Notes: generated by a model not told the origin, from the sequence alone. A stretch of 64,000 nt of DNA from a bacterium (GCA_040755755.1 JBFLZW010000041.1:1-64000), one strand, 5' to 3'. Shown: positions 10,367 through 51,392, numbered from the stretch's first letter. Made by a program: numbers and translations.

Positions 10367-10367
10367 G

Positions 10368-11935: not shown

Positions 11936-11958
11936 AGCCGTTTATTATGGCACTTCTC

Positions 11959-12945
<987 letters not shown>

Positions 12946-12996
12946 CGTTCAATCCTCCCCGAAAGTATAGCTCAAAACAAAGCTCATGGAATAATG

Positions 12997-13050
12997 AAAA
13001 AGGGACTTCACGGATTAGATAAAATTCCTTATAACCCATTTGTCCCTTTT
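12997..13050 (-). terminator. Possible terminator of htrA gene
   Basis: On the minus strand, AAAAGGGAC (13050-13042) can pair with GTCCCTTTTT (13006-12997). The loop is long (35 bases) and a U-run ends the second arm. It lies about 70 bases past the htrA stop and before moxR. The long loop makes it weak. Confidence 0.35.
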
Positions 13051-13119
13051 ACGGTATGTCCGTACAACAGCACAAGAATCTGCGAATAGTTCAAACCAAT
13101 GCAGGAAAGATTGGTATAA

Positions 13120-14592
13120 TTATTTCTCCTTGATAGCAGTATACAGTAAATGGTCGTCCTCACGTTTAATAAGAAGGAGCAGGGTCTTTCTATTCTTTTT
13201 GGCTATCTTCTGGAATTCACTGACATCGGTAACTTTTTGCCGGTTAGCTTCCATGATAATATCACCCCTGCGGATATTTGCCCTGTCCGCTGCACTGCCG
13301 GGGGTAACATTGGTTACCAGAACGCCGGTGGTTTCGGACAGGTCGAAATGGTCAGCCAGTTCCGGGGTAATATTCTGAAGGCTCATGCCTAATTCGGTTT
13401 CCACCGGACCTTTTGCCACCTGCGCCTCGCCGGTGAAGGTTCCAATCTCGACCGTGACTTCCTTCTTCTTCATATCCCGGATAATTTCCAGCCGGACTTT
13501 GGTTCCCGGACGGGTAAGCCCTGCCATTCTGGACAGATCGGTGTATTCGCTGATCTCTTTTCCGTTAAAGGAAATGACTACATCCCCCTGTTTGAGTCCT
13601 GCCTTGTCTGCCGGGCTTCCTTCCACAACTTCTGCTACCAGGGCTCCCTTGTTTTCTTTCAGCCCGAAGGATTTGGCCAGGTCAGGAGTAACTTTTTGAA
13701 TGACCAGTCCAAGCCAGCCCCTGGTGATTTTTCCCTTCTCTTTCAGCTCCGGCATGGCCTCTTTGACCATATTGATGGGAATGGCAAACCCGATTCCCTG
13801 GCCTTCAGCCGTAATAGCCGTGTTGATGCCGACCACTTCTCCCCTGATATTGAGCAGCGGGCCTCCGCTGTTGCCCGGATTGATGGAAGCATCGGTCTGG
13901 ATAAACGAATCATAGGGCCCCTGCCCGATCGGCCGCCATTTGGCACTCACGATCCCGGCAGTTACGGTATGCTCCAGGCCAAAGGGATTGCCAATGGCTA
14001 CAACCCATTCTCCGATTTCCAGCCGGTCAGAGTCTCCGAACCTGACGAGCGGCAGATCTTCCTTGGCCTCGATTTTCAGGAGAGCAATGTCCATGTCCTC
14101 GTCGGACCCAATGACTTTGGCTTCGTACTCGTTTTTATTGGTCAGGGTGATCTTGATATCTTCGGCATCCTTCACCACGTGATTGTTGGTAAAAATATAA
14201 CCGTCTTTGCTGATGATAAAGCCCGATCCCAGGCTTTTCCTCTTCATGTCGCCTTTTGGTATCCCGAAGAATTTGTTGAAAAAGTCATCACCGAAAAAGT
14301 CCCGGAAGGGGTCGTTCATGGGAGCACGGAATTGAAAATTCTTGACCACCTGGGTGGAGCTGACATAAACGACAGCCGGATTTGCATCTTTGGCGATTTT
14401 AACGAAGATATTGCCGGGAATGAAAGTTCCTGCTGGTTCAGCAGGCGGCTCTTTCGGTCTGGTATTGGTCTCAAGCTGGACTGCGGTACTGTTTCCCGTC
14501 CAGTTGAAATGCGAGGCGATCATGATCCCGATGAACACCGAAATGAGACAGGATACAACAATTCCCGGTACAATAAGCCTTTTTTTATCCAT
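13120..14592 (-). CDS. degP: HtrA/DegP family serine protease
   Basis: 490 residues from the ATG at 14592, preferred over 14610 because GGAGGAG lies nine bases upstream. An N-terminal signal anchor (about 5-24) is followed by a trypsin-like domain with the triad His in TNNHVV, Asp in DMDIALLKI and Ser in NPGNSGGPLL. Two PDZ domains follow (about 290-375 and 395-485, with GLKQGDVVISFNGKEI and ANIRRGDIIMEANRQ). The family degrades or refolds misfolded envelope proteins. All catalytic residues are present and the length is normal for the Do subfamily. It has its own promoter and stands apart from the Bat operon. Confidence 0.93.
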   Translation of the reverse strand: MDKKRLIVPGIVVSCLISVFIGIMIASHFNWTGNSTAVQLETNTRPKEPPAEPAGTFIPGNIFVKIAKDANPAVVYVSSTQVVKNFQFRAPMNDPFRDFFGDDFFNKFFGIPKGDMKRKSLGSGFIISKDGYIFTNNHVVKDAEDIKITLTNKNEYEAKVIGSDEDMDIALLKIEAKEDLPLVRFGDSDRLEIGEWVVAIGNPFGLEHTVTAGIVSAKWRPIGQGPYDSFIQTDASINPGNSGGPLLNIRGEVVGINTAITAEGQGIGFAIPINMVKEAMPELKEKGKITRGWLGLVIQKVTPDLAKSFGLKENKGALVAEVVEGSPADKAGLKQGDVVISFNGKEISEYTDLSRMAGLTRPGTKVRLEIIRDMKKKEVTVEIGTFTGEAQVAKGPVETELGMSLQNITPELADHFDLSETTGVLVTNVTPGSAADRANIRRGDIIMEANRQKVTDVSEFQKIAKKNRKTLLLLIKREDDHLLYTAIKEK

Positions 14593-14630
14593 CCTCTTTT
14601 TCTCCTCCATTCGTTAGAAATTGAATAATT

Positions 14631-14659
14631 ATTGTACTACACTCGAATTTGTTTATCAA
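14631..14659 (-). promoter_or_regulatory. Sigma-70-type promoter of htrA
   Basis: Reading the minus strand: TTGATA (14659-14654), 17-base spacer, TACAAT (14636-14631), giving a start site near 14624 and a leader of about 32 bases. Close to the housekeeping consensus. Confidence 0.7.
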
Positions 14660-14734
14660 TACGTTTGTTATGCTTTTTCTTGCCTGAAATCTTATCGTCT
14701 TCAATGAGGGAGGCAGTCGAGACAGAGAGAAAAC

Positions 14735-14780
14735 AAAAAGCAGCCATGACAGAGCAAAAGCCCTGTCATGGCTGCTTTTT
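14735..14780. terminator. Strong terminator after sigma-factor gene
   Basis: AAAAAGCAGCCATGACAG (14735-14752) pairs perfectly with CTGTCATGGCTGCTTTTT (14763-14780): 18 base pairs with a ten-base loop. The U-run on the minus strand ends transcription from the sigma-factor gene. The symmetric A/T flanks would also work on the plus strand. Confidence 0.85.
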
Positions 14781-14834
14781 GCTGACACTCACCCGGTGCG
14801 GATTTATTGCAGCCCGCAAGCTTGTGGGTTGCAG

Positions 14835-15848
14835 TTACGATTTATTGATAAAATCTATCAGTGGCGAAATTCTGTTAGGCTGTTTAAGCCGCTGCAGGGC
14901 TTTCTCCTCGATCTGGCGGATTCTCTCCCGGGTAAGATGAAAGTATTTACCGATCTCTTCCAGGGTTTGCTCTTTATGGGTTCCGATGCCATATCTCATC
15001 TCGATGATCGTTTTTTCCCGTTTGGTCAGGGTCTTAAGGACCTTTTGGATCTGCTCGATGAGATTGACATCAAAGACCGTATCCATGGGAGAGGCGCTGT
15101 TTTTATCCTCGATGTAATCGACGATGTTATAATTTCCCAACTCGTCGATAGGGGTTTCAACGGAAATGGGGTTTTTGATGATCCCAACCAGTTCATGGAT
15201 TTTCTGGACGGGAACTCCCATATCAATGGCGATTTCGGTTATCGTCGGTTCCTTTTTCATCTCCTGGGTCAACCTCTGATGGCTTTTCATCATATTTTTG
15301 ATAGCGTCAAGGGTGTGAACCGGAATACGGATAGTTCTTCCCTTGTCAGCCAGAGCCCTGGTTATTGACTGACGAATCCACCAGATGGCATAGGTGCTGA
15401 ATTTGCAGCCCTTGCGGTAGTCAAACTTTTCCACTGCCTTCATTAACCCGATGTTGCCTTCCTGTACGAGATCGAGAAACGGGAGCCCGCTGTTGATATA
15501 TTTTTTCGCTATGCTTACCACCAGGCGCAGATTGGCCTTGATAAGCAGCTCTTTTGCCTTTTCATCACCGGCCACGATTCTCTTGGCGAGCTCGATTTCC
15601 TCGTCCTTGTCCAAAAGAGGAACCTTTCCGATTTCTTTAAGGTAGACGCGCACCTGATTGTCGGTCTCTTCGAGAATGCCTGCTTCTTCATTTTTAGTCT
15701 CTACCTCAATGTCCGGCTCACCGTCAGACTCCTCTGAAGTATCACTCAAAGGATCTTCACTGCTTTCGGATTCAAATTCAATGCAATCATCGTCAATGCA
15801 ATCAAGGTCTTCCTTAAAAAAGAAACCGTATGAATTAAATGCTTCCAT
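14835..15848 (-). CDS. RNA polymerase sigma factor, sigma-70 group 1/2
   Basis: 337 residues. A highly acidic N-terminus (residues 12-65, many Asp/Glu/Ser) precedes region 1.2 ([20 protein letters not shown]), region 2 with [13 protein letters not shown] and the promoter-melting/-10 helix [17 protein letters not shown], region 3 ([14 protein letters not shown]), and region 4 with [17 protein letters not shown] and the -35 helix [18 protein letters not shown]. The large 1.1 and non-conserved regions of typical RpoD are missing, so this resembles RpoS-like or short RpoD proteins. The start is supported by GAGGAGAAGG. It follows the phosphatidyltransferase gene by 42 bases and likely shares its promoter. 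Whether it is the primary or an alternative factor cannot be told here. Confidence 0.9.
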
Positions 15849-15890
15849 GGTAGCCTTCTCCTCTTCTACTACTACTCTCTGAACCCTCTT

Positions 15891-16472
15891 TTACTCCCCA
15901 TACCTGATTTCATGCCAGGTGAACCAGATACGGTGGATTGCAGTCTGGTGGCACAGGATCACCAATATCCAAAGTGTTGGTTTGAGATAATTTATCAGTG
16001 ATCCGGCTGAAAGAACGAGCACTCTTTCAGGTCGTTCCATAAGGCCGACATCGCATGCTTTTATGATATTCTCCGCTCTTGCCTTGGTATAACTTGTCAT
16101 GATAAATCCGGCTGTGGCTATCAGGCTGAGGAGAACATATGCGGGTTGATTGATCCGGGCATAATACAGGGTGATGCCCCCCATGATACTCAGGTCGGAA
16201 TACCGATCGACTGTTGAATCCCAAAACGCGCCAAATTTGCTGACTTGGCCTTTGTATCTGGAGTAAGCACCATCAAGCAGATCAAAAAAACCGGCAGCCA
16301 GAAGAAGAAACCCTGCAAGTTGAATCTTCCCTGAACCAAAAGCACAACCAGCCGCAAGGCTCATGAGGAGCCCCAGACTGGTTATTTGATTCGGGGATAT
16401 CCAGGATGGAATTTTCCCGCTTATTGAAAATAATATCTTATCCGAGGAGGCTTTTACATATTTGGCCAGCAT
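15891..16472 (-). CDS. CDP-alcohol phosphatidyltransferase family protein
   Basis: 193 residues from the ATG at 16472 (GGAG six bases upstream). Several membrane segments surround the family motif DLLDGAYSRYKGQVSKFGAF and following DSTVDRYSD, which fits D-x2-D-G-x2-(A/S)-R-x8-G-x3-D-x3-D with Ser in place of the usual Ala. The enzyme joins a CDP-activated lipid to a polar alcohol in phospholipid synthesis; the alcohol (glycerol phosphate, inositol phosphate or other) cannot be told from the motif. It lies upstream of the sigma-factor gene on the same strand, which may couple membrane lipid synthesis to that regulator. Confidence 0.85.
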   Translation of the reverse strand: MLAKYVKASSDKILFSISGKIPSWISPNQITSLGLLMSLAAGCAFGSGKIQLAGFLLLAAGFFDLLDGAYSRYKGQVSKFGAFWDSTVDRYSDLSIMGGITLYYARINQPAYVLLSLIATAGFIMTSYTKARAENIIKACDVGLMERPERVLVLSAGSLINYLKPTLWILVILCHQTAIHRIWFTWHEIRYGE

Positions 16473-16602
16473 CCTGCTCTCCAACCCCTTCCCTTGCCTA
16501 ACCCATCGTGATACTCTTCAAACCTTCCCCAGAGGGAGTACCATTAAAGCCGAAAACCTGCTCTTCCGTAGTCCTCCTGATGAGAATTTAGTAAATGTTC
16601 TC

Positions 16603-16630
16603 ATTATAGCTCAAATTTCACAATTCGCAA
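16603..16630 (-). promoter_or_regulatory. Sigma-70-type promoter for phosphatidyltransferase/sigma operon
   Basis: Minus strand: TTGCGA (16630-16625), 16-base spacer, TATAAT (16608-16603). A perfect -10 box; the start site would be near 16596, giving a leader of about 125 bases. Confidence 0.6.
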
Positions 16631-17049
16631 GTTTGATTTCTCAATGATCCCGGAAAATGAATTCTTTCTTACTGGGCAAAAAAGTATGCAATAAAATTGC
16701 CAACCTTGCTAACCGATGCGCTCAGAGTGGGAAATCCCTTTGGTTTTATACCCTGCCCGGCTTCTCTATAACGCTGGAGGCTGACGTATTTTCCCTTGTT
16801 TTATCAGAGAGTTAATAAGGCAGGTCACTGATGGCGGGGAAGTTGAAAAAGGGATATTCCCACAGTGTGGAAGGAAAAGGGAATCCGTGAATCAGTATGC
16901 AAAATTTTTCTTAATGGTCATTTTATTTACAGGTGAGGGGGAACCGATTATCCGTTCAGTTCTTTCAGTGGGGCAGGGCATTTCCCGAAAAGCACAGCAG
17001 CCGGCGGTATATAAATTTTTCACACCTACATGAGTTTTATACATCGCAG
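16631..17049. other. Intergenic DNA with no recognised gene
   Basis: About 420 bases between the phosphatidyltransferase promoter and the hairpin behind groEL. Open frames here are short and lack ribosome binding sites or recognisable motifs. No RNA gene was recognised. Confidence 0.5.
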
Positions 17050-17090
17050 GCAAAGCCCTCTTTGCAATTTGATTGCAAAGAGGGCTTTGC
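17050..17090. terminator. Perfect 18-bp hairpin behind groEL
   Basis: GCAAAGCCCTCTTTGCAA (17050-17067) pairs with TTGCAAAGAGGGCTTTGC (17073-17090) around a five-base loop, 40 bases past the groEL stop. There is no U-run on either side, so it may act as an RNA-stabilising 3' hairpin or a non-canonical terminator of groESL. Confidence 0.55.
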
Positions 17091-17129
17091 CATACAAACA
17101 CCAGTTTTTTCGTCCGGTAGTCAGTTCAA

Positions 17130-18794
<1,665 letters not shown>

Positions 18795-29306: not shown

Positions 29307-29624
29307 ATGGCTCCAATAGAATCTGTTTTAAATGAGATAGTGCGCAGAATCGTTGAAACTGTGCATCCAAAAAGAATTATTCTTTTTGGATCTGCTGTTC
29401 GAGGAAATATGGGACCTGACAGCGATCTGGACCTGCTCATTGTTGTATCATCGGGTGAGCATCGACGTAAGACAGCGCAGAAAATTTATAGAAATCTAAT
29501 CGGCGTAGGTTTTGCAACCGATATCGTTGTGGTTACAGAAGGTGATCTGGAAAATTATAAAGATTGTATCGACCTGGTAATCCAACCGGCCCTCGAAGAA
29601 GGGAGAGTGCTCTATGCTGCGTGA
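29307..29624 (+). CDS. Minimal nucleotidyltransferase (MNT) of MNT/HEPN pair
   Basis: 105 residues. The nucleotidyltransferase core IILFGSAVRGNMGPDSDLDL (about 24-43) has the GS-x-R-G and D-x-D signature, followed by LIVV and a later acidic residue in VVVTEGD. MNT proteins with a HEPN partner are widespread modules that behave as toxin-antitoxin systems: the MNT adds nucleotides to the HEPN protein and silences it. The start ATG at 29307 follows AGGG closely. It overlaps the HEPN gene by 11 bases, as is typical of such pairs. Confidence 0.88.
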   Translation: MAPIESVLNEIVRRIVETVHPKRIILFGSAVRGNMGPDSDLDLLIVVSSGEHRRKTAQKIYRNLIGVGFATDIVVVTEGDLENYKDCIDLVIQPALEEGRVLYAA

Positions 29625-30027
29625 TCCGGGTGATTACCGTAATCCACATGAATGGATCAAAAGAGCAAAAAGTAATCTTATCCGTGCCCGGCAGCCTAAA
29701 GTGGAGGGGATATTATGGGAGGACCTTTGTTTTGACACTCAGCAGGCTGTGGAAAAGGCATTGAAAGCAGTGCTCTTGTCGCGGGGCATACGGTTTCGGT
29801 TTGTTCATGATATTGCTGAGCTGCTGACGATCCTTGAAAAACATGCTATTCACTTGCCTGATGAGATACGGGCCGCCGCCGGGTTGACCGATTATGCAGT
29901 GGAAACCAGATATCCGGGCACGGCTGAACCGGTTACCGAGGAGGAATTCAAAGAAGCACTCAGGACTGCTGAAGCAGTAGTCGTCTGGGCTCAGAGTTTG
30001 ATTGACGGCCCATCCTGCCAGAAGTGA
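29614..30027 (+). CDS. HEPN-domain protein of MNT/HEPN pair
   Basis: 137 residues, all-helical. It has HEPN features: WIKRAKSNLIRARQ near the N-terminus, CFDTQQAVEKALKAVLLSRG (about 46-65), then RFRFVHDIAELL with the His-Asp typical of the second conserved motif, and LTDYAVETRYPG near the end. HEPN proteins of this type are putative RNases held in check by their MNT partner. It overlaps the preceding MNT gene. Which member is toxic here would need experiment. Confidence 0.87.
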   Translation: MLRDPGDYRNPHEWIKRAKSNLIRARQPKVEGILWEDLCFDTQQAVEKALKAVLLSRGIRFRFVHDIAELLTILEKHAIHLPDEIRAAAGLTDYAVETRYPGTAEPVTEEEFKEALRTAEAVVVWAQSLIDGPSCQK

Positions 30028-30155: not shown

Positions 30156-31436
30156 TTATTTCGGCATCCAGCCCAGGGTGAGGCCAAAGGTTATATCATC
30201 GGGTTGAAGCGGTATCAGGTCATTCCGTACAAAGGTCTTTCCATTCCATTGATATTGGCGTAAGAAGTGCTGATCGTCCGAGGCCACGTAAATTTCGTTC
30301 TTACCATCGTGATCGAGGTCAGAAATGAGGGTGGCATGCTCAAAGCCGCTGGATTGGTCGTCGATCAGGGACTTCTCCCAATTCCCCTGCTCCTTTTGCC
30401 GTAACACCCAGATACCGGATTGCATGGTCGAAGCCACGATGTCAATAGACCCGTCTCCATCCACATCGGCAGCCGTGAGATAGCGGCAGAGCATATCCGG
30501 CAGGTCTGCAATGATCTGTCCGCTCAACTGCCCGTTCACAAACCGGTATTGCTTGATCTTGGCAGTGTCCACAAGGCCCGGCTGTCCCTGGACAGTGCCC
30601 ATTTCGCCCTCGATAGCTGCAAACAGGTCAGGATACCCGGAGCCGGTGACATCGGCGGCCAGGATCTCTTTAACGTGACGGTTGGGGAATTCCTCAACAA
30701 TATCGCTCAGGAATCGCTCTCCATCGAACCGGTACATGATGATCTTTCCCGGTTGGGGGCTTCCGTCAAGACGATTGGGAGCACTGGGTGTGGAAAAGAA
30801 TTCCTTCTTCCCATCGTGGTTAATGTCCCCGATTTCGATTTCATGAACGAAAGTGTCCGGGGTCCGGCCAAGCTCCGTGATAACCCAGGCTCCATCTTTC
30901 CACTGAAGCACGGCCACAATACCCTGGTCATGGGTGGCGATAACAAGATCATCTCCACCGTCCCCCGTTACATCGCCAGTTTCTACATCCCTCAATCGGT
31001 TCTGTTCCCCCCCAAAAGTGGGGTTCCAGAGCAAAGTCCCTTTCCACTGGCCTGCCTCGTTCCGGTGCCACAGTTTGAGGGCGGCGGCATTGCCGGAAAT
31101 AGTTAAAATTCCCGGTTGTCCTGATGGCGGATTGAACCAGAGAGCTTTATGAAAAACATTACTTTCCGGATCTTCCAAAAGAGTGCTTTTCCATCCATCC
31201 GGCGTCCTTTTGACCATCGTCAGTTTGGCGGCACCGGGGATGGACCGTGCTTCCCCGTCCGGTTGTTGTTCTGTCCGAAACTGCGCCTGAGCCAGAAAAA
31301 GTACAGCAGAGGAGGATGCGGCATGGCTCAGGCCATTTCCTGAGGGAGCATGCGCCGCCTTCAGGCATCCGGTAATACCACCCAGCAAGGCTGCCAGAAG
31401 TATGAAGAAGCAAAAATTCCTGTACCTGTATTTCAT
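30156..31436 (-). CDS. FG-GAP/VCBS-type beta-propeller lipoprotein
   Basis: 426 residues from the ATG at 31436; the frame is open to 31523. An N-terminal lipoprotein signal ends LLGGITGC (Cys about residue 24). The rest is a series of about seven beta-propeller repeats with Ca-binding Asp-rich loops of the FG-GAP/VCBS kind: DVTGDGGDDLVIATHD, DINHDGKKEF, DVTGSGYPDLFAA, DVDGDGSIDIVAS and DLDHDGKNEIYVAS. It is expected to be lipid-anchored in an envelope membrane and exposed. Such propellers bind ligands or partners rather than catalyse. The stop codon of the UspA-like gene abuts the start, implying one transcript with it. Confidence 0.82.
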   Translation of the reverse strand: MKYRYRNFCFFILLAALLGGITGCLKAAHAPSGNGLSHAASSSAVLFLAQAQFRTEQQPDGEARSIPGAAKLTMVKRTPDGWKSTLLEDPESNVFHKALWFNPPSGQPGILTISGNAAALKLWHRNEAGQWKGTLLWNPTFGGEQNRLRDVETGDVTGDGGDDLVIATHDQGIVAVLQWKDGAWVITELGRTPDTFVHEIEIGDINHDGKKEFFSTPSAPNRLDGSPQPGKIIMYRFDGERFLSDIVEEFPNRHVKEILAADVTGSGYPDLFAAIEGEMGTVQGQPGLVDTAKIKQYRFVNGQLSGQIIADLPDMLCRYLTAADVDGDGSIDIVASTMQSGIWVLRQKEQGNWEKSLIDDQSSGFEHATLISDLDHDGKNEIYVASDDQHFLRQYQWNGKTFVRNDLIPLQPDDITFGLTLGWMPK

Positions 31437-31437
31437 A

Positions 31438-31881
31438 TTATTTGACTCCAGATGGGGGATTTTTGATATAAATGACCTCAAAAGGGGCTTCATGAAGAGA
31501 AGTCGAAATACGCTTCTGGGCAATGATCGTAGATACCTGCTTTTCTTTGGCCAGGCGCAGAATATTATCGATATACGGTCCCTTGATAACGATAAATTCG
31601 GTCTCCAGACCCTTCTCCCGTGCTTTTTGCTGAATGCTGTGCAGGGCTTTCAGAATGACTTCGCCCCGCTTCTCTTTAATCTCTTCCCGGAGCTGATCGA
31701 GCACCTTTCGACCGAGAAAGCTTACATCTTCCATCATCCGGCTGACTTTGCCCGACATATTGGCCTCCCGGATGTCAAGGACAATCAGCCGGGCTTTCTT
31801 CTGGAGAGCCATCTCGATAGCATAGCTTGCAATTTTATCCGAAATTTGGGTGGCTGAAAATACCACCATGATTGTTTCCAT
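31438..31881 (-). CDS. UspA-like (universal stress) domain protein
   Basis: 147 residues with the alternating strand/helix pattern of the universal stress protein fold: METIMVVFSATQISDKIASY at the start, ARLIVLDIREANMSG, then a helical stretch and GLETEFIVIKGPYIDNILRL. It ends VSTIIAQKRISTSLHEAPFE, which matches the region of the nucleotide-binding loop but lacks a clear G-x2-G-x9-G(S/T) motif, so ATP binding is doubtful. It sits between a DASS transporter gene and a propeller lipoprotein gene on the same strand. UspA-like domains often accompany transporters, which fits this place. Confidence 0.68.
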   Translation of the reverse strand: METIMVVFSATQISDKIASYAIEMALQKKARLIVLDIREANMSGKVSRMMEDVSFLGRKVLDQLREEIKEKRGEVILKALHSIQQKAREKGLETEFIVIKGPYIDNILRLAKEKQVSTIIAQKRISTSLHEAPFEVIYIKNPPSGVK

Positions 31882-31905: not shown

Positions 31906-33345
31906 TTACAGGGATACTCCCACCAGAGGCCAATACCATTTTACCAGAATTAAAAAAATGATCCAGCAGCAAATGTGCAGAATTATTCCTGCCTTGATAA
32001 TATCCCTGATGTCGTAATACCCTGATGAATAGGCAATAGCATTGGCAGGAGAACCCATGGGCAGAATAAAGGGCAAACCGGCAGGGACGGCTACACCGAA
32101 AACCATGGCCAGGGGATTGATGGCATTCGCACGACAAATGCTGAACCCGATAGGAAGAATGATGGCCACGCAGGCTACATTGCTGATCCCTTCCGTAAGC
32201 AGGAAGGAGAACAGGGAGAAGATGCCGATTGTCCAGAGAGGCGCTAAGTGGACCCTGCTCAGCAATTGATGGGCAATCCAGCGGGCCGCCCCGGTCTGAT
32301 CAACAGCTTTGGCGATAACGATGGCCCCTCCGTACATCAGGATTACTCCCCAGTTAACATAGCTGTTGACATCATCCCAGGTAATGACCTTGGCTATAAA
32401 CAGGGTTACAGCCGAAAAAAGTGAGACCATAGCCATCTCAAACCAGTGATTGAAAATAATCCAGATCAGGATGGTGGTAGTAAGAATGACAAGAACCTTT
32501 TTTTCCGTTAAAGTCATCGGGCCGATTTCCCGTAATTCTTCTTCCAGCTTCTTCCTGGCAGGTCTCACATCGGCTATATCGAGATTGAAGCCGAAAATCA
32601 AAATAGCATAGGCCACAATGAGCGTTATTCCGACCAGAGGAAGAGCTACCCTGGACCATCCCCAGAAGCTCAGGGATTGATGGAAAGCCTCCTGTAACAT
32701 GCCGACAGCCAGAGGTGCCCGCGCTCCTCCGAGAAGGGTCCCCACTCCGCCGATTACTGATCCCCAGGACATGGCCAGAAACAGGCCGGTTCCATATTGA
32801 CTCTCACGGGGCTGGGAATCCAGACTCAGGGCAATGGTTCCCACTACGGGAAACATCAGGGCGGCGACAGCATGCTCCGGTATGATCAAGGCCATGAAGC
32901 CGCAGGTAATGAGAATACCCAAAATTAAAATGCGGGGGCTGTGGCTGAAGTGGGTGAGGATGGCGAGAGCCGTACGCTTGCTCAACCCGGATTTTATGGT
33001 GGCAGAAGCCATAATAAAAGCGCCGAGAATGAAAAATACCGCACTGTTGCCAAAAAAGGAGTAAGCCTGCTCGGCTTTCATGACCCGCAAGAGAGGAATC
33101 AGCGCAATAACCAGCAAGCCGGTAACCGAAAGGGGAAGTGCATTGGTAACCCACAAAATCAAGGCCAGGGAAAAAATTCCCAGTGAGCGTTGTCCGGCAG
33201 TTGAGAGGTTGGCCGGGCTGGGGAGAACAAGGAAAATAAGAAGGGTGAAAAAGGCCAGGAAAAGAAAAGCGAGCTCTCGTCTGCTCCCTGCGACAGTATC
33301 TCTGGAGTTATTGCCTCCTGATGTATGGGTATGGTTTTTTACCAT
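31906..33345 (-). CDS. DASS/SLC13 family sodium-coupled anion transporter
   Basis: 479 residues with twelve or more hydrophobic segments. The family signatures are visible: NSAVFFILGAFIMASATIKS (about 103-122), AVAALMFPVVGTIALSL, and the second-half motif GMVFGVAVPAGLPFILPMGS, then PANAIAYSSGYYDIRD. These transporters import dicarboxylates, sulfate, tungstate or similar divalent anions with sodium. The substrate is not evident. An interior loop of charged residues (about 275-290, RKKLEEELREIGPMTLTEKK) separates the two halves as usual. It lies 24 bases upstream of the UspA-like gene and about 145 bases downstream of the large cytochrome gene, all on one strand. Confidence 0.88.
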   Translation of the reverse strand: MVKNHTHTSGGNNSRDTVAGSRRELAFLFLAFFTLLIFLVLPSPANLSTAGQRSLGIFSLALILWVTNALPLSVTGLLVIALIPLLRVMKAEQAYSFFGNSAVFFILGAFIMASATIKSGLSKRTALAILTHFSHSPRILILGILITCGFMALIIPEHAVAALMFPVVGTIALSLDSQPRESQYGTGLFLAMSWGSVIGGVGTLLGGARAPLAVGMLQEAFHQSLSFWGWSRVALPLVGITLIVAYAILIFGFNLDIADVRPARKKLEEELREIGPMTLTEKKVLVILTTTILIWIIFNHWFEMAMVSLFSAVTLFIAKVITWDDVNSYVNWGVILMYGGAIVIAKAVDQTGAARWIAHQLLSRVHLAPLWTIGIFSLFSFLLTEGISNVACVAIILPIGFSICRANAINPLAMVFGVAVPAGLPFILPMGSPANAIAYSSGYYDIRDIIKAGIILHICCWIIFLILVKWYWPLVGVSL

Positions 33346-33489
33346 GAGAGTCTTTTATCCGAAGTCAATGCTTTGCCAGTCAGGGTTGTTATTTGGCTTT
33401 TGATCTTTTCTTTTCGGATTTTCTGCAATAAAACCTGCCAGGGCAGTATATCAGGATTCCCTGCTAAAATAAATATTGAATTTCGATCT

Positions 33490-36400
33490 TCAGGGGTGGC
33501 ATTCCTGGCAGGACTTTTTGGACGTAGTCATAGGGCCGGTCATGTCGTGCATTCCATTTCTCTCTGGGTAGGTATATACTTTTTTGGGCAGAGAGTGGCG
33601 GTTTCGATGGCAGGCCATGCAATTTATACTCGCCTGTTTGGATACTCCCTTCTGACCATGCTGAATATCCTGGTGGCACCGGAAACATTCAATCGATTGT
33701 TTATTAACATGAACAGTGTGGATGAGAGGGGTATCTCCGGCCAGCTTGTTTTTAGAATTGATATGGCAGGTGAAGCATCGTTCTCTGGGAACCTGACCCT
33801 CTCCCTGGGTGACTTTGATGTGGCAGTCGGTGCAGAGAAGATTTTCGTTATTAGCCAGAAATTTTTCATGATTGAGCTCAACTCCTGCAAAATTTATCGA
33901 AATACCGGGTAAAGAGTGACAGGTAATGCACCTTCCAACCCCGGTATCCTTTTCCTGTCTTCCTTTAAAGTGGCAGTTAAAGCAGATCGTTTCGGTTACC
34001 CGTACATGTTTGCCCTGGACGATTTGTGAATGGCAGGTAATGCACCCAAGATGCTTGCCGCGGGGAGAAGTTTTTAAATGCTGCTCATGGCTGAATCGGA
34101 TACCATGCTTGAACAGCTTTTCTTCCTGGATTTCAGCCCATTGATGACATCCCTGCTGCAAACAGGCCTGATCACTGACCCTGGATTTGGGTAAAATGGA
34201 ATAGGTTCTCGCCAGAGCCCTGATGACAAGGCTGAATTTATTACGATCTTCCTGGTTCCCGGAGGTGCTGAGATGTTCATAGTGGCAGGTTACACAACTT
34301 ACCGCCTGATGAGAAGAAGTCTGCCAGGACTCGGTATAGGGGCGCATATAGTGGCAGCGGTTGCAAAATCCCGGGTAATTAATGATTTTTTGGGAATAGA
34401 GGGGAATCAAAATTCCGGGGAAAAAAGCCAGTAATCCCAGGCAGGCAAGGGCTTTCTTCCAGTGGACCTTGGAGCGGGAGGATGTATCTCCTTCCATCCA
34501 ACTTGCGGACGGGGAAAGGAACAGGAAAAGGCCCAGAAAACTGATCAGGTAGAGGGAGTAGGCCGACAGGTCGCTTATGCATCTTTGGTGGTTAACCGTG
34601 AAAAAATTGTAGGCCAATAGTCCAAGAGTAATGGTTGTCAGATACAGATAAAGTTCCCTGCCCAATTGAACTGCCAGGAACATATAAAGCACAGCCGAGA
34701 GAAGGAGAAGCTTCTGAGAAACTTCCAGGTTCCCGGAAAAGAAAGCCATGATGCAGCACGTCAAAGCCACGAGTGTAGCTACATCGAAGATTGGCTGTGT
34801 CCGGTCCCGCCCTTGTTTCCTTTTTATGAAATAGCCAATCAGACAAAGAAAGAAAGGATCAAAGAAAAAATACTGCAAGCGCATGGTGGGCAATAATCCA
34901 GGCACCTCTCGCAAGCCAAAATAGAAGCATATGGAGAAAAAGGCAGCGGCCAGAAAAGAGTGCTCATAGCAGGGCGATATCCAGCTCAAAGCCAGATAGA
35001 AAAACAGATAGACCAGAAGGGAAAGAAAAAGCCAGTATGTTTTTCCTGCACCCGGATTGATTAATGCCAGAAGAATAATCGCTGATACCCAAAGATGTCC
35101 GGCATTTTTAAACATACTTTTTCCCCACGGAAGAAACGGCCTAGCCCATAAGCTGCATCCATAGAAAAGCACGACCAGCGGGAGGGCGGCAGTAAGTATC
35201 ATATTTCCGGGAATTCCTCCTGTCAGAAGCCCTTTATACCAGACTGCGGCTAAAACGAGGCAGGCTGCGCCGATGTGCCAGACCTTGTTCGTTTGACAGG
35301 CCATAAACAGGTGAGCGGCAAATAAGATGCAACTCAGAAATAGACCGGATGGAAGGTCTTGGGAATACAGCCAGGCGAGGACCGAAATCAGGCTTAAAAG
35401 ATTCCCTGCCCAGTAAGATACTTTGCTCAATCTGGGAAACTGTTTATCGGCAAAACTATAAGCCAGATAATGGAGAAAAACACACATTGACAAGCCGTAG
35501 AGTGAGTCAGGTGAAGCATAATTCAAGGTTACCAGAAAAAATCCACTCAGAGTCAGCCATCCGAAATACCAGACTTGTGCCAGAGGATAGCCTTTCTGCT
35601 GTGATCGCATACCCAGTCCCAGCAGGAGAAAACCAGGGAGTAAAAAGAGGAGATTAGTCCCGCCGGAAGAGATAAGCTCTTTGGGAATCAAGTAATAGTA
35701 TATGAATGCCACAACCAGCACGACGGGGAAAAGGAACTTCTGGTCCTCGGTGATCAGAAAGAATACCAGCATGGAAAAAAGATAGCCAAAACCCAGCATG
35801 CAGATGAAGTCCAGGGAATAGCTGGACAGTTGCAAAGGAATGAGGAAAGCGAGGAGGACCGTGAGAAATTGGACCTCATAGATTGTTTTGCTGAAAACAA
35901 GCCGCCCCATCTGCTGACCCAGGTGCCCAAGCCAGAAAAACAGCCAGATTAAAGGGATAGTGAGGATCAGATACCAACTGATTTCATAGACCGGGGAGTG
36001 AATCAATAATCCCTCGAAAAAGGCGATATTCATGAAAAGGCCAAACAGGTAGGTGGAAATGCTTTGCTCCCCTTCAGTCTCAAAGTTATTCTGCCAGCCT
36101 GCAAGAAAGTACAGAAAAGCATAAGCCAGCCCGATTACCAGGTAAAAAAGGCCCACCGGAAAGCCATTCCAGGCAAAAAGAAAAAGGTAACCCAGGGCGA
36201 AAAGGTAAGAAATTACCAGGAATTTGTTCTGCTTTCGTGGCAGGTCCTTACCTGCGGTTCGAGATAACCTTGTGTGCAAAACATGCAAGCGGTAAAAATG
36301 GAAGGAGTAAAGAAATCCGATAATCATGAGCAAATTTACCCGTGAGCAATAATACCAGAAAGCGAGTGCGAGCCCGATAAATCCGATAACAAAAGCAGGA

Positions 36401-37131
36401 TGCCAGAATTTTTCCCCTTCCTCCCGCCTCTGCTGGTAAACGCCTGCATACATGAAGATCATGAATAGAACAATCAGATATAATCCGTAAGCCTGATGGG
36501 GAATGACCGGGATTTGATGAAGAAAAAAAACCAGAGAAAAGGAAAGACATCCCAGAGAGAGGTATAACCAGCCAGCCAGCCCCTGCTGTTTCAGTTTCGT
36601 CCGCCGAGTGAGCTGCCAGTAGTAAAAAAAGCTGTAAAAGCCAAGTGTACAGGCAGCAATACACGGATGCTTCTCCAGATATTCTCGGCATTGGATCAGC
36701 ACAGTGCCGATAAAAAAAAAGCCCATCAGACAGGCGGCATTATCCAGCGGATGGAGAGCCTCTTCAGCAAAGACTTTCAATCTCGTAAGCCCGAGCGATA
36801 TTCCTGACAGCAGCAGAGCGAGGGGAACAGAAAGCAGGGGCATAACCAGAGAGAAAGACGGCACCAGCCGGAACGCGGAGAGAAAGCAGGAGAAAATCAG
36901 TAACAAAGCAGCAGGATACATAAATATCCTGCCCAGTAACCGGGCAAAGGCAAAGCTCAGCACAGAAAAAAGCATGAGGATACCACTGCCGAGCAGGGGA
37001 TTGTCAATCAGAAACCCACGGCTGGCAACCAGCAGGCAAACGCCCGCCAGCAGGATCAAACCGTGGCTGAGCTGCCTCCATCCTCCCTTTTCCATCAATC
37101 CGATAGTGACTCGTTCTTCTCTACTTTCCAT
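33490..37131 (-). CDS. Giant polytopic membrane domain fused to NapC/NrfH-like multihaem cytochrome c
   Basis: About 1,213 residues from the ATG at 37131; the frame is open to 37416, and starts at 37194 and 37095 are also possible, none with a strong ribosome binding site. Residues about 15-890 are almost continuous hydrophobic segments (well over twenty) with short polar loops and no recognised domain. Residue 890 onward resembles NapC/NrfH: a membrane anchor (ALACLGLLAFFPGILIPLYS), then GFCNRCHYMRPYTESW and SCVTCHYEH. The C-terminal 293 residues hold ten CxxCH sites (CNRCH, CVTCH, CITCH, CFNCH, CITCH, CTDCH, CFTCH, CFRCH, CMACH, CQECH) and one CxxxxCH (CLQQGCH), so up to eleven haems. The last CxxCH lies one residue from the C-terminus. 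The family knowledge is that NapC/NrfH passes electrons from quinol to periplasmic enzymes. The membrane domain's role is unknown. Confidence 0.82.
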   Translation of the reverse strand: MESREERVTIGLMEKGGWRQLSHGLILLAGVCLLVASRGFLIDNPLLGSGILMLFSVLSFAFARLLGRIFMYPAALLLIFSCFLSAFRLVPSFSLVMPLLSVPLALLLSGISLGLTRLKVFAEEALHPLDNAACLMGFFFIGTVLIQCREYLEKHPCIAACTLGFYSFFYYWQLTRRTKLKQQGLAGWLYLSLGCLSFSLVFFLHQIPVIPHQAYGLYLIVLFMIFMYAGVYQQRREEGEKFWHPAFVIGFIGLALAFWYYCSRVNLLMIIGFLYSFHFYRLHVLHTRLSRTAGKDLPRKQNKFLVISYLFALGYLFLFAWNGFPVGLFYLVIGLAYAFLYFLAGWQNNFETEGEQSISTYLFGLFMNIAFFEGLLIHSPVYEISWYLILTIPLIWLFFWLGHLGQQMGRLVFSKTIYEVQFLTVLLAFLIPLQLSSYSLDFICMLGFGYLFSMLVFFLITEDQKFLFPVVLVVAFIYYYLIPKELISSGGTNLLFLLPGFLLLGLGMRSQQKGYPLAQVWYFGWLTLSGFFLVTLNYASPDSLYGLSMCVFLHYLAYSFADKQFPRLSKVSYWAGNLLSLISVLAWLYSQDLPSGLFLSCILFAAHLFMACQTNKVWHIGAACLVLAAVWYKGLLTGGIPGNMILTAALPLVVLFYGCSLWARPFLPWGKSMFKNAGHLWVSAIILLALINPGAGKTYWLFLSLLVYLFFYLALSWISPCYEHSFLAAAFFSICFYFGLREVPGLLPTMRLQYFFFDPFFLCLIGYFIKRKQGRDRTQPIFDVATLVALTCCIMAFFSGNLEVSQKLLLLSAVLYMFLAVQLGRELYLYLTTITLGLLAYNFFTVNHQRCISDLSAYSLYLISFLGLFLFLSPSASWMEGDTSSRSKVHWKKALACLGLLAFFPGILIPLYSQKIINYPGFCNRCHYMRPYTESWQTSSHQAVSCVTCHYEHLSTSGNQEDRNKFSLVIRALARTYSILPKSRVSDQACLQQGCHQWAEIQEEKLFKHGIRFSHEQHLKTSPRGKHLGCITCHSQIVQGKHVRVTETICFNCHFKGRQEKDTGVGRCITCHSLPGISINFAGVELNHEKFLANNENLLCTDCHIKVTQGEGQVPRERCFTCHINSKNKLAGDTPLIHTVHVNKQSIECFRCHQDIQHGQKGVSKQASINCMACHRNRHSLPKKVYTYPERNGMHDMTGPMTTSKKSCQECHP

Positions 37132-38172: not shown

Positions 38173-38376
38173 TTAGCAGGGGCGTACGTTCACAGCCTGG
38201 GGTCCTTTGGGACCTTGCTGAATATCGAATTCTACCAGTTGGTTTTCCTGAATACTCTTGAAGCCTGATCCCGAGATTGCTGAATAATGTACAAAAACGT
38301 CTTTGTTTTCACCTGAAACCGTGATGAAGCCAAAGCCTTTCTGATCATTAAACCACTTTACTCGTCCTTGAGCCAT
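38173..38376 (-). CDS. cspA: Cold-shock protein, CspA family
   Basis: 67 residues from the ATG at 38376, chosen over 38397 because AAAGGAGG lies ten bases before it and [20 protein letters not shown] is the normal CspA start. The RNA-binding motifs KGFGFI (RNP1, about 14-19) and VFVHYSAI (RNP2, about 29-36) are intact. CspA-type proteins bind single-stranded RNA and melt secondary structures after cold shock. The protein ends [11 protein letters not shown] predicted leader of about 170 bases precedes the gene, as in cold-inducible csp genes. Confidence 0.96.
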
Positions 38377-47099: not shown

Positions 47100-50000
47100 A
47101 TGCGCGAAAAATCTGAGGGCAGGAAAAAGATATTGTGTCTTGGGATTGACATCGGATCGATCAGCGTCGACTTTGCCCTCGTTAACCAGGATCGTGAGAT
47201 TATCAGGACTTCCTATCACCGGGTCAAAGGACAGCCTATTCTCAAGACCCTTGAAGTGCTGGAGAAAGAGTTTGCCGATTTTCTGGCCGAAGATTCCATC
47301 AGCCTGTCGTTTACCGGGACCGGCGGACTGATCCTGAGCCATCTGCTGGATACGTTCTTTATCAATGAAATCATCGCCCAGATGAAAGCGGTCATCCTGC
47401 TTCATCCCGAGGCCAGAACCATTATCGAAATCGGCGGCGAGGATTCCAAACTCATTCTGCTCGACTACCAGCAGTCCTCACAATCTCTGGTCCTGAAGGA
47501 TTTTGCCATGAATACCATGTGCGCTGCGGGTACCGGCTCTTTTCTCGACCAGCAGGCTTCGCGGCTCGGCATCTCGATCGAGGAAGAGTTCGGCGAACTG
47601 GCCATGAAGTCGAAAAACCCGGCCCGTATTGCCGGGCGGTGCAGCGTTTTTGCCAAATCGGATATGATCCACCTCCAGCAGGAGGCCACCCCGGACTATG
47701 ACATCATTGCCGGGCTGTGCATGGCTATGGCCCGAAACTTCAGGGGAAGCATCGGCAAGGGGAAGGAGTTCCAGAAGCCCATTCTCTTTCAGGGAGGAGT
47801 TGCCGCCAATAAGGGCATGGTGAGGGCGTTTGAGACGCTTTTCAAGCTCGCTCCGGGAGAGTTGATCATCCCGAAGTACTATAACTGCATGGGCGCTATC
47901 GGAGCTGCCCTGGTCGCGCTCGAAACCCCGAAATTCATCAGGGGAAGGAATGTCCTGAAAACGATAGCCGATTATTTGAACCAGGACCGCTATCAGGAAT
48001 CCCACCTGCCGCCGCTGCACGCTGGCAAGCCCCCGTCTTCGGGAAAACGCCCTGCGGATGCGGGAAAACCATCCGGGGCAGGGAACGGCCAGAGCGGGAG
48101 AGACGCAAAGCCGATTCCGGCCTTTCTGGGAATCGACGTCGGCTCGATCAGTACCAATGTGGTAGTGATCGACAGCAACAAAAAGGTCCTGGCAAAAAGA
48201 TACCTGATGACTGCCGGACGCCCGATCGAAGCGGTCCGCACGGGGCTTGATGAAGTCGGGCGGGAGCTCCAGGACCGGGTCAGAATCTGCGGAGTGGGCA
48301 CCACCGGATCGGGAAGATACCTGATCGGGGATTTCGTGGGGGCCGATATCATCAAAAACGAGATCACCGCCCAGGCCAAGGCCGCGGCAGCCATTGACCG
48401 GCAGGTCGATACTATCTTCGAAATCGGCGGCCAGGATTCCAAGTACATCAGCCTCGATCAGGGTGCGGTCGTGGATTTCGAGATGAATAAGGTGTGCGCT
48501 GCCGGAACCGGCTCTTTCCTGGAAGAGCAGGCGGAAAAGATCGGCATCAATATCAAGGAGGAGTTCGGAAACCTGGCCCTCTGTGCTTCCGCTCCCGTAA
48601 GGATGGGGGAGCGCTGTACCGTATTCATGGAGTCTGACCTTGTCCACCATCAGCAGAGCGGTGCCGCCAAGGAGAACCTGGTGGCCGGTCTCAGCTATTC
48701 GATCGTTCATAACTACCTGAACCGCGTGGTGGCCGGACGCAGGGTTGGAAACCGGATATTCTTCCAGGGCGGAGTGGCAGCCAATAAAGGCGTGGTCGCT
48801 GCCTTCGGGCAGGTCCTGCAAAAGCCGGTGATCGTTCCCGAACACCACGAAGTTACCGGGGCCATCGGCGTGGCCCTGATCGCCCAGGAGGAGCAGACCT
48901 GGACCCAGAGCAAATTCCGGGGATTTGATCTGAGCCACCGCCGCTATGAAATCGAGAGCTTTGAATGCGCAGGATGCGCCAATCACTGCCAGATTAAAAA
49001 GGTCGTGCTCGATCAGGACCGGCCGCTTTTCTACGGCAGCCGGTGTGACCGCTACGATGAAAAAAAAGGAGAAAAACTCTCCGCCCATCCCCTCGATCTG
49101 TTTGCCTTCCGGTCACAGGAGCTTCACCGGCAGTACCTGACTCCAGCCGGGGATTCATCTTCTTCCAGCGCGCCTCGCACAAAGATAGGTATCCCCTTAT
49201 GCCTGTTCTTTCACGAGTGGCTTCCCTTCTGGCGGACCTTCTTTACGGCCCTGGGGCTTGAAGTCATCCTCTCTCAGGCAACGAACAAGGAGATCATCAA
49301 CCAGGGGGTACAGGCGGCTGTGGACGATACCTGCTTTCCCATCAAGGTGGCCTATGGACATATCCATAACCTCCTCCGGCAAAAGGTCGATTATCTCTTT
49401 TTGCCCAGCATCATCAACATGCCAACCGAGCAGAACGGTATCCATGACAGTTTCAACTGTCCCTACGTCCAGACGATTCCCTACACCGCCGCCGCGGCTA
49501 TCAATATCGAACAGAGCGGGACAAAGCTTCTGCGGCCTGTGGTATACCTGCGAAGAGGACTGAAATCTATCCGCAAAAGCCTCATCCCCCTTGGCCGAAG
49601 CCTGGGAAAATCCGCGGCGGACACCGGAAAAGCCATTGACCGGGCTTACGCTGCCCAAAGCTCCTTCCATGCCGCCCTCCAAAAAAAGGGAGAAGAGATT
49701 ATCAGCACACTCCCGGAACAGGAGAAGGCAATGGTCCTGATCAGCCGGCCCTACAATGGCTGCGATTTCGGGCTGAATCTGGAGATTCCCAGAATTTTTC
49801 GCGAAATGGGCTTTCTGATCATTCCGATGGACTTTCTGCCGCTCCACCAGAACCAGATCGCCGAAAACTGGCCCAATATGTACTGGCGCTACGGGCAAAG
49901 AATCCTGAGCGCTGCCCGGTTTATCCGAACACGGGCAAACTTGTATGCCATCTACCTGACGAATTTCAGCTGCGGCCCTGATTCGTTCATCACCCAGTTT

Positions 50001-51392
50001 TTCCAGCACACGATGAGTGGAAAGCCCTACCTGCAGATCGAGGTTGACGAGCACAGCGCCGGTGCCGGAATAATCACCCGCTGTGAAGCCTTTGTCGATA
50101 GTCTGCGAAGCCGGCAGCGGCAGCAGGCTGTGGCCGGTGATATGCCTGAAACCGTGATGTGCCGGACGGTCTCTTCAAATTCATGCCGGAAGGATACCTA
50201 TTCTCACCGCAAGCTCTACATTCCCCCCATGGCCGGACATGCCCATGCCCTGTGTGCCGCCTTCAGATCCCAGGGAATAATGGCCGAGGTCATACCGGAG
50301 TCCGACGAGCAGACCCTGCAGTATGGCCGGATGTACACCTCCGGCAAGGAGTGCTTTCCCTGCCTGGTAACAACCGGCGACATGGTAAAAATCACCCGTT
50401 CATCCCAGTTCGATCCTGAAAAGAGCGCCTTTCTCATGCCTTCCGGCGATGGTCCCTGCCGGTTCGGGCAGTACTATCAGCTGCACCGGCTGGTCCTCGA
50501 CCGCCTGGGTCTTCCCGAAGTGCCAATCTATTCTCCGAGTCAGGGGGAAACTTTTTACCGTGAGCTGGGGATCATGGGGAGAAAGTTTATTCGTCTTGCC
50601 TGGCAGGGGATCGTTATTACCGACTACCTCGAAAAGTGGCTTCTGCAAAACCGGCCCTATGAAAGCTCTCCCGGGGAGGCAGACCGGATTTATAACCAAT
50701 GCCTGTCCCTGCTCTGCCAGACTATCGAAACTCAAGGGGCTGCCTTTCCGGTTATCGGGCAGATCCTGCGGATCCTCGGCGAATTTCGCCGGGAGCCGAA
50801 AACACAGCGGCCAATCATCGGTATTGTGGGCGAGATTTTTGTCAGGTCCAACCGCTTCAGTAACAACGACCTGATCCGCAGAATCGAAGCCCTCGGCGGG
50901 GAGGTCTGGATGCCGCCAATTACCGAGTGGTTCCATTATATCAATTACACCAGCAAGATTCACAGCCTGGTCAATCAGAATCTGAAAAACCTGCTTTCGA
51001 CCATGATCCGGGATATTCTGCAAAAGAAGGACGAGCGCAAAATTCACCGCCTGCTCTGCCCGGCCATTCTCGACGGAAAAGACCCTTCGATCGAGCAGCT
51101 CCTCGATAACAGCCGCCCCTACCTGCATTCCTCCTTCGAGGGTGAGGCCATCCTGAGCATTGGCAAGGCCATAGATTATGCCGCTAAAAACATGGACGGA
51201 TTGATCAATGTCATGCCCTTCACCTGCATGCCGGGAACCATCGCTTCCACGATCATGAAACGAGTGCGGATGGACTACCGCGATTTTCCTTTCCTGAACC
51301 TGGCGTATGACGGCCTCGAGCAAACCTCCATCAAGACCCGGCTGGAGGCATTCCTGTACCAGGCCCGGCAATTCCAGGAAAAGGCGCGGTAA
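47100..51392 (+). CDS. Tandem CoA-dehydratase activase fused to HgdB/DUF2229-like domains
   Basis: 1,430 residues. Two BadF/HgdC-type ASKHA ATPase domains sit in tandem. The first (about 10-285) has LGIDIGSISVDFALVNQDRE, GGEDSKLILLD, MNTMCAAGTGSFLDQQ and AGRCSVFAKSDM. The second (about 340-600) has LGIDVGSISTNVVVIDSNKK, GGQDSKYISLD, MNKVCAAGTGSFLEEQ and GERCTVFMESDL. Each contributes the two Cys that in HgdC dimers bind one shared 4Fe-4S cluster. A Pro/Gly/Lys-rich linker (about 300-335) joins them. A DUF2229-like part follows (about 640-900), then an HgdB-like region with further Cys (KECFPCLVTTGDM, PFTCMPGT). Activases use ATP to send one electron to 2-hydroxyacyl-CoA dehydratases or benzoyl-CoA reductases. 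No such enzyme is encoded nearby, so the substrate is unknown. GGGAG precedes the start. Confidence 0.9.
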   Translation: MREKSEGRKKILCLGIDIGSISVDFALVNQDREIIRTSYHRVKGQPILKTLEVLEKEFADFLAEDSISLSFTGTGGLILSHLLDTFFINEIIAQMKAVILLHPEARTIIEIGGEDSKLILLDYQQSSQSLVLKDFAMNTMCAAGTGSFLDQQASRLGISIEEEFGELAMKSKNPARIAGRCSVFAKSDMIHLQQEATPDYDIIAGLCMAMARNFRGSIGKGKEFQKPILFQGGVAANKGMVRAFETLFKLAPGELIIPKYYNCMGAIGAALVALETPKFIRGRNVLKTIADYLNQDRYQESHLPPLHAGKPPSSGKRPADAGKPSGAGNGQSGRDAKPIPAFLGIDVGSISTNVVVIDSNKKVLAKRYLMTAGRPIEAVRTGLDEVGRELQDRVRICGVGTTGSGRYLIGDFVGADIIKNEITAQAKAAAAIDRQVDTIFEIGGQDSKYISLDQGAVVDFEMNKVCAAGTGSFLEEQAEKIGINIKEEFGNLALCASAPVRMGERCTVFMESDLVHHQQSGAAKENLVAGLSYSIVHNYLNRVVAGRRVGNRIFFQGGVAANKGVVAAFGQVLQKPVIVPEHHEVTGAIGVALIAQEEQTWTQSKFRGFDLSHRRYEIESFECAGCANHCQIKKVVLDQDRPLFYGSRCDRYDEKKGEKLSAHPLDLFAFRSQELHRQYLTPAGDSSSSSAPRTKIGIPLCLFFHEWLPFWRTFFTALGLEVILSQATNKEIINQGVQAAVDDTCFPIKVAYGHIHNLLRQKVDYLFLPSIINMPTEQNGIHDSFNCPYVQTIPYTAAAAINIEQSGTKLLRPVVYLRRGLKSIRKSLIPLGRSLGKSAADTGKAIDRAYAAQSSFHAALQKKGEEIISTLPEQEKAMVLISRPYNGCDFGLNLEIPRIFREMGFLIIPMDFLPLHQNQIAENWPNMYWRYGQRILSAARFIRTRANLYAIYLTNFSCGPDSFITQFFQHTMSGKPYLQIEVDEHSAGAGIITRCEAFVDSLRSRQRQQAVAGDMPETVMCRTVSSNSCRKDTYSHRKLYIPPMAGHAHALCAAFRSQGIMAEVIPESDEQTLQYGRMYTSGKECFPCLVTTGDMVKITRSSQFDPEKSAFLMPSGDGPCRFGQYYQLHRLVLDRLGLPEVPIYSPSQGETFYRELGIMGRKFIRLAWQGIVITDYLEKWLLQNRPYESSPGEADRIYNQCLSLLCQTIETQGAAFPVIGQILRILGEFRREPKTQRPIIGIVGEIFVRSNRFSNNDLIRRIEALGGEVWMPPITEWFHYINYTSKIHSLVNQNLKNLLSTMIRDILQKKDERKIHRLLCPAILDGKDPSIEQLLDNSRPYLHSSFEGEAILSIGKAIDYAAKNMDGLINVMPFTCMPGTIASTIMKRVRMDYRDFPFLNLAYDGLEQTSIKTRLEAFLYQARQFQEKAR

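Follow-up and report, generated by a model that had tools for sequence, protein, structure and literature searches.

NapC/NrfH proteins normally possess a single membrane anchor and four to five haems, and they take their electrons from quinol. In anaerobes, the routes by which electrons of cytoplasmic NADH or ferredoxin reach multihaem chains in the periplasm are only partly known. Several described systems resemble parts of the locus analyzed here. In Geobacter, the conserved cluster GSU2930-2937 encodes a Rieske protein, a cytochrome b and cytochromes of 10 and 12 haems (PMC2825233), and a second source describes ImcH and CbcL as passing electrons from menaquinol oxidation to periplasmic cytochromes (PMC12307469). 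FlxABCD-HdrABC is an NADH dehydrogenase/heterodisulfide reductase of sulfate reducers, presented in two sources as a cytoplasmic complex that delivers electrons to ferredoxin and DsrC (PMC10553843, PMC4287179).

We analyzed a gene lying within a 64,000-nt stretch of DNA from an uncultured bacterium (hereafter, the window). An earlier note had described a giant hydrophobic domain fused to an eleven-haem cytochrome at 33490-37131, and our analysis confirmed this architecture with about 32 predicted membrane helices plus an anchor. As in the quinol dehydrogenases NrfH, NapC and CymA (2j7a), the anchor is followed by a first haem of the type CxxCHxM, with a weak match in sequence and fold over haems 1-2; unlike them, the fusion protein carries 11 haems rather than 4-5 and about 32 additional membrane helices. 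It also resembles the single-anchor multihaem NapC-like cytochromes, stand-alone relatives from many phyla whose homologous domain presents the same haem pattern at about 35-41% identity, but these have one anchor and no array, and their gene partners are of the bc type rather than Hdr-Flx. The nearest described setting for the cytochrome half, likened by description, is GSU2930-2937. ImcH and CbcL are comparable through the proposed function, since the fusion protein would likewise be an inner-membrane multihaem link from menaquinol to the periplasm; the available part of PMC12307469 mentions no giant array in either protein. Finally, the FlxABCD-HdrABC gene set is found downstream of the fusion gene in two relatives, where, unlike in the described complexes, it is encoded together with a membrane multihaem fusion. 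Our literature search for a NapC/Flox multihaem fusion or a membrane solenoid returned nothing relevant. The quinone-linked multihaem conduit of NapC-like type is known, whereas the membrane array and its coupling to the cytochrome are new, and there is a substantial chance that they belong to a new complex.

Architecture of the fusion gene

The fusion gene and its parts are as follows.

33490-37131, minus strand: whole fusion gene, 1213 residues; stop codon at 33490-33492, start at M1 (37131) or M13 (37095); homologues are full-length
36247-37086, minus strand: super-repeat block 1, residues 16-295, about 10 membrane helices (4+4+2), from AlphaFold2 helices and HHalign
35449-36240, minus strand: super-repeat block 2, residues 298-561, about 10 membrane helices (4+4+2), from AlphaFold2 helices and HHalign
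34504-35448, minus strand: super-repeat block 3 and last hairpin, residues 562-876, about 12 membrane helices, from AlphaFold2 and HHalign
34390-34455, minus strand: NapC/NrfH-like anchor helix, residues 893-914
33493-34389, minus strand: periplasmic cytochrome domain, residues 915-1213, with ten CxxCH and one CX4CH motifs

The 1213 residues are counted from the ATG at 37131, and the reading frame stays open as far as 37416. Relatives support a start at either M1 or M13, the latter being the position where two of the homologous proteins (G002 and G004, below) begin.

Whole-genome searches identified full-length homologues in a genome of the same genus (G001; JAILZY010000016, HOT.CON.50), of the same family (G002; DAOURK010000020, CSMAG_150) and of the same order (G004; JAFGSM010000145, Zod_Metabat.896), with respectively 73%, 39% and 31% identity. 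All three encode both halves in one uninterrupted frame, so that the one-frame fusion is found in four genomes of this lineage, and full-length conservation at these identities rules out chance or misassembly. In two other lineages the protein is encoded by adjacent genes. A metagenome-assembled genome (MAG) labelled Nitrospirota (L037) presents it as two genes of 549 and 758 aa, the start of the second overlapping the stop of the first and the Shine-Dalgarno-like stretch AGAAGGAGG, which resembles a ribosome site, lying upstream. The other lineage is represented by G056, the sole genome of its phylum among those searched, which contains two gene pairs of this split type. The three splits, two of them in operons, all fall at the end of block 2, a super-repeat boundary, and block 3 opens the second gene in the split homologues L037, L120 and L121. 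The earlier note had considered that the halves might be separate genes joined by an assembly error; the four one-frame homologues and the natural splits at a single boundary exclude an assembly artefact or a frameshift.

The membrane domain was detected in 6 of 386 genomes, each time joined to or adjoining the cytochrome; it was never found apart from it in these genomes, even when block 3 alone was searched at E 1e-4. We built a tree of 77 cytochrome domains, in which one branch (SH-aLRT 79) separates the seven that are fused or coupled from all the others. This grouping is compatible with a single origin of the fused and coupled proteins, without proving it.

Membrane array and cytochrome domain

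In none of the homologues scanned did residues 18-876 give a Pfam match, and the window protein gave no NCBIfam match there. Overall, no known family in Pfam, NCBIfam or PDB sequences covers residues 1-880, and the polytopic partner evoked by the earlier note is thus matched by no profile. The membrane part was modelled with AlphaFold2 from ten sequences, which yielded a fair model with about 32 membrane helices (pLDDT 77.9, pTM 0.60). Off the diagonal, comparison of the profile with itself gave a score of 125 (E 5e-14), relative to 15-24 for DUF2339 and unrelated membrane proteins. We then compared the blocks with HHalign, cutting them at residues 16-295, 298-563 and 562-830. Blocks 1 and 3 matched each other at E 4e-13, blocks 2 and 3 at E 1e-10, and blocks 1 and 2 at E 1.5e-5, with the four-helix units in register across the three blocks. 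In the L037-type protein, the block-3 HMM also picks up the first block (E 6.5e-6). Because the blocks match one another with their units in register, we conclude that a four-helix unit was first duplicated and a ten-helix block (4+4+2) was then triplicated to build the array, an additional hairpin preceding the anchor.

Foldseek returned no match between the array and the PDB at E <= 0.001. The best VIA-align rows were designed helical repeats, along with the ESX rows 6umm_B and 7b9f_X (Z 12, about 260 residues). Since designed helical repeats gave the best fold rows, the model suggests, but does not prove, a solenoid-like membrane array. In four homologues, the loops of the N-terminal side carry 21-27 lysine and arginine residues and the opposite loops 6-8. 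Together with a count of 33 predicted helices, this positive-inside signal puts the N-terminus in the cytoplasm and the haems outside. Relative to two deep homologues, the window protein shares 25-36% identity in the membrane domain and 45% in the cytochrome, and few polar residues are invariant inside the membrane helices. The lower conservation of the array fits a structural role better than a catalytic one.

The eleven haem motifs start at residues 923, 946, 990, 1030, 1050, 1068, 1100, 1119, 1149, 1171 and 1208, the last ending at residue 1212. As the earlier note had counted, ten are CxxCH and one, at residue 990 (CLQQGCH), is CX4CH; across 2000 shuffles of the same 320 residues, we never obtained more than two CxxCH. 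The first haem motif, CNRCHYM (residues 923-929), follows the anchor as CxxCHxM, and its methionine is invariant (41 of 41 relatives). Nine histidines outside the motifs are kept in at least 39 of the 41 relatives and constitute candidate distal ligands. The start of the domain (residues 914-953) matches the NrfH/NapC-like model TIGR03153 at E 1.6e-7. The window protein nevertheless scores below the curated cut-offs, with 19.9 versus 24.1 bits for Cytochrom_NNT and 31.5 versus 134.2 bits, far below the equivalog cut-off, for NrfH; its relatives in G002, G004 and G056 exceed the Pfam cut-off. The residues that we take to be the quinol-site lysine (K82) and the distal aspartate (D89) of NrfH were located by alignment to 2j7a. 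The position of Lys82 is a lysine in 34 of 41 relatives; the window protein has an aspartate there and a lysine three residues later. Most relatives (30 of 41) differ from NrfH by a valine in place of Asp89. The model of the cytochrome domain is poor (pLDDT 63, haems unplaced), and its sole Foldseek match, a weak one, is NrfH 2j7a (E 0.78).

A scan of the collection contigs with the single protein as query yielded no match, while an alignment query identified relatives of the cytochrome half at 315 loci of the species-level collection. The best 80 of these 315 come from many phyla, and nearly all the non-fused ones among them possess one anchor and 8-27 haem motifs. Their neighbours are often nine-haem proteins and small or 7-8-helix membrane proteins, Rieske and cytochrome b being inferred from size. 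One stand-alone relative of 924 aa, from a Gemmatimonadales MAG (L104, 4617-7799), contains 27 CxxCH motifs. Given the number of these relatives and the composition of the best-scoring ones, the cytochrome half is ordinary: eleven haems on a NapC-like anchor, which had seemed unusual to the earlier note, are not exceptional. A 12th haem and a C-terminal helical extension are present in G002, G004, L037 and the stand-alone relatives of G022 and G028. The proteins of the window and of G001 stop after haem 11 and present neither, and no remnant of the 12th haem or the helical domain was found after the stop (window 33300-33490). Both have been lost in the window genus.

Gene neighbourhoods

We examined the genes surrounding the fusion in its relatives. 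In G002, the fusion gene opens an operon with, in order, HdrC, HdrB, HdrA, MvhD, a FloxC-like small Fe-S protein, an AsrA/HydB-like protein, an AsrB/HydG-like NAD(P)H/FAD subunit, a response regulator and a histidine kinase. Judging by gene size and opening sequence, G004 presents the same order; directly after its operon lies a protein of 610 aa that has 13 hydrophobic segments and matched neither Pfam nor NCBIfam (L026, 14494-16326). For one of the G056 pairs, the second gene overlaps the gene of a GltD-like FAD/4Fe-4S oxidoreductase; genes for a Rieske protein, a cytochrome b and a cytochrome c come next. Upstream of the two L037 genes lie one for an FrhB-like protein and one for a lipoprotein with nine haems.

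In the window genus, the fusion gene has no linked cytoplasmic redox module. The downstream part of the G002 operon does have an orthologous counterpart in the window genome, an HdrA-MvhD-Flox-response regulator-kinase cluster on contig C30 (L133, 155500-175000) at about 9555-17028 (its AsrA-like subunit is 62% identical), which lacks the fusion, HdrC and HdrB. Contig C54 carries another Hdr-Flx cluster (L131, about 9440-17982), in which the HdrA-like protein measures 1489 aa; this cluster is also found in G001 (L132). Anaerobes carry many genes of the Hdr-Flx, FAD and FrhB types. Because of this abundance, and because the modules differ between relatives, some of these linkages could be coincidental.

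In the window itself, three genes follow on the same strand, and profiles confirmed the identities that had been proposed for them.

31906-33345, minus strand: DASS family sodium-coupled anion symporter, NCBIfam E 8e-80, above cut-off
31438-31881, minus strand: universal stress protein (Usp), Pfam E 3e-9
30156-31523, minus strand: FG-GAP propeller lipoprotein, E 1e-18

The start called for the FG-GAP lipoprotein overlaps Usp, and its true start is therefore probably further in. The three genes are syntenic in G001. The gene order in homologues, which the earlier note had proposed to map, is thus informative for Hdr-Flx in relatives, whereas the DASS-UspA-propeller linkage is limited to the genus.

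Proposed function and further genes of the window

We propose, with a probability of about 0.5, that the fusion protein is a quinone-linked electron conduit of the cytoplasmic membrane whose array serves as a scaffold, a quinone-holding platform and a dock for cytoplasmic redox modules. The periplasmic C-terminal domain would accept or donate electrons at its NapC/NrfH-type haem 1 beside the membrane, and its chain of about eleven haems would relay them to further cytochromes of the periplasm or the outer surface. The array of about 32 helices would be a scaffold rather than a catalytic pump; it may hold one or more quinones and lipid near haem 1, and its cytoplasmic face may offer a docking site for soluble flavin/Fe-S modules. 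The docking partner would be the Hdr-Flx complex, of the NAD(P)H/ferredoxin/heterodisulfide type, in some relatives and a GltD-like FAD/Fe-S oxidoreductase in another lineage. The match to TIGR03153, the invariant CxxCHxM, the weak fold match to NrfH, the topology signal, the operons of relatives and the Hdr-Flx cluster kept in the window genome support this conduit, to which the earlier note had also pointed. It is weakened by the unlinked gene of the window genus, by the valine at the Asp89 position, by the aspartate at the Lys82 position of the window protein, by the poor cytochrome model and by the possible coincidence of some linkages. The data show the architecture, the topology signal, the repeats, the homologues and the operons; we infer quinone use, docking, the direction of electron flow and any function in the window species, which has lost the operon link.

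We also advance, tentatively, a more specific version in which the protein belongs to an undescribed membrane redox complex whose array, by way of bound quinone, would connect an electron-bifurcating Flx-Hdr module of the cytoplasm to a multihaem wire in the periplasm. If true, electron bifurcation would be linked directly to envelope or extracellular electron transfer. A profile-less membrane family that is always attached or adjacent to a multihaem domain resembling quinol dehydrogenases, and that occurs with Flx-Hdr in two relatives, would be a testable candidate for a link between cytoplasmic NADH or ferredoxin and periplasmic multihaem chains. The array would also illustrate strikingly how repeat duplication can give rise to a membrane protein of very large size.

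Alternatively, the array could be purely an anchor or scaffold that positions the cytochrome, assembles a respiratory supercomplex or organizes the membrane; it would carry out no quinone chemistry itself, and a separate quinol oxidase would provide the electrons. The repeat-built array and its low residue conservation are consistent with such a role, and an electron source could be found in the Rieske, cytochrome b and cytochrome c genes of the one G056 locus or in the Rieske/cytochrome-b-like genes that often adjoin stand-alone relatives. However, most fused loci have no cytochrome b neighbour, and the haem-1 motif CxxCHxM beside the anchor, which is invariant here, usually marks in NapC/NrfH a haem that faces quinol. 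We consider this alternative rather unlikely.

It is improbable that the fusion is a redox-driven pump or transporter, in which electron flow through the haems drives ions through the array. The great size of the membrane domain, the DASS gene adjoining in the genus and six residues invariant inside helices of the four closest homologues (D783, D854, K675, H23, H278 and H679) would fit such a pump. Yet D783 and D854 are not conserved in L037 and G056, conserved buried charges are few, no transporter fold or profile was matched, and the DASS linkage does not extend beyond the genus. The redox-powered transporter listed by the earlier note gained no support, given the repeat-scaffold nature of the array and the small number of conserved polar residues in its helices.

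We consider it very unlikely that an ordinary NapC-type cytochrome is joined here to a known giant membrane family narrowly missed by profiles, such as DUF2339. The DUF2339 proteins are likewise large, polytopic and internally repeated, but they present no detectable sequence relation to the array: their HHalign score of 24 over 72 columns is about the level of unrelated membrane controls (15-19), against 125 for the self-repeats, and with no Pfam match this kinship is disfavoured at the sequence level. Least credible of all is a hidden b-type cytochrome or haem-handling domain, with the array carrying haem b or aiding haem delivery like CcsBA: a large polytopic domain does lie beside c-type haems, with a GH motif recurring at the helix starts of residues 23 and 679, but H23, H278 and H679 are the only membrane histidines invariant in the four closest homologues, they lie on separate helices, and G056 does not retain all of them. 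Neither Pfam nor NCBIfam gave a match to cytochrome b or Ccs/Ccm.

Other genes of the window were recorded along the way. Upstream of the fusion gene, a small cold-shock-like protein was identified by eye only (38174-38376, minus strand). At 29307-30027, a HEPN-domain protein (Pfam E 1e-26) is preceded by an overlapping 105-aa frame, and the two possibly form a HEPN/MNT toxin-antitoxin pair in which the short frame is the putative partner. Finally, a gene at 47100-51392, beside unrelated genes, encodes a CoA-enzyme activase of 1430 aa that contains BcrAD/BadFG repeats and DUF2229.
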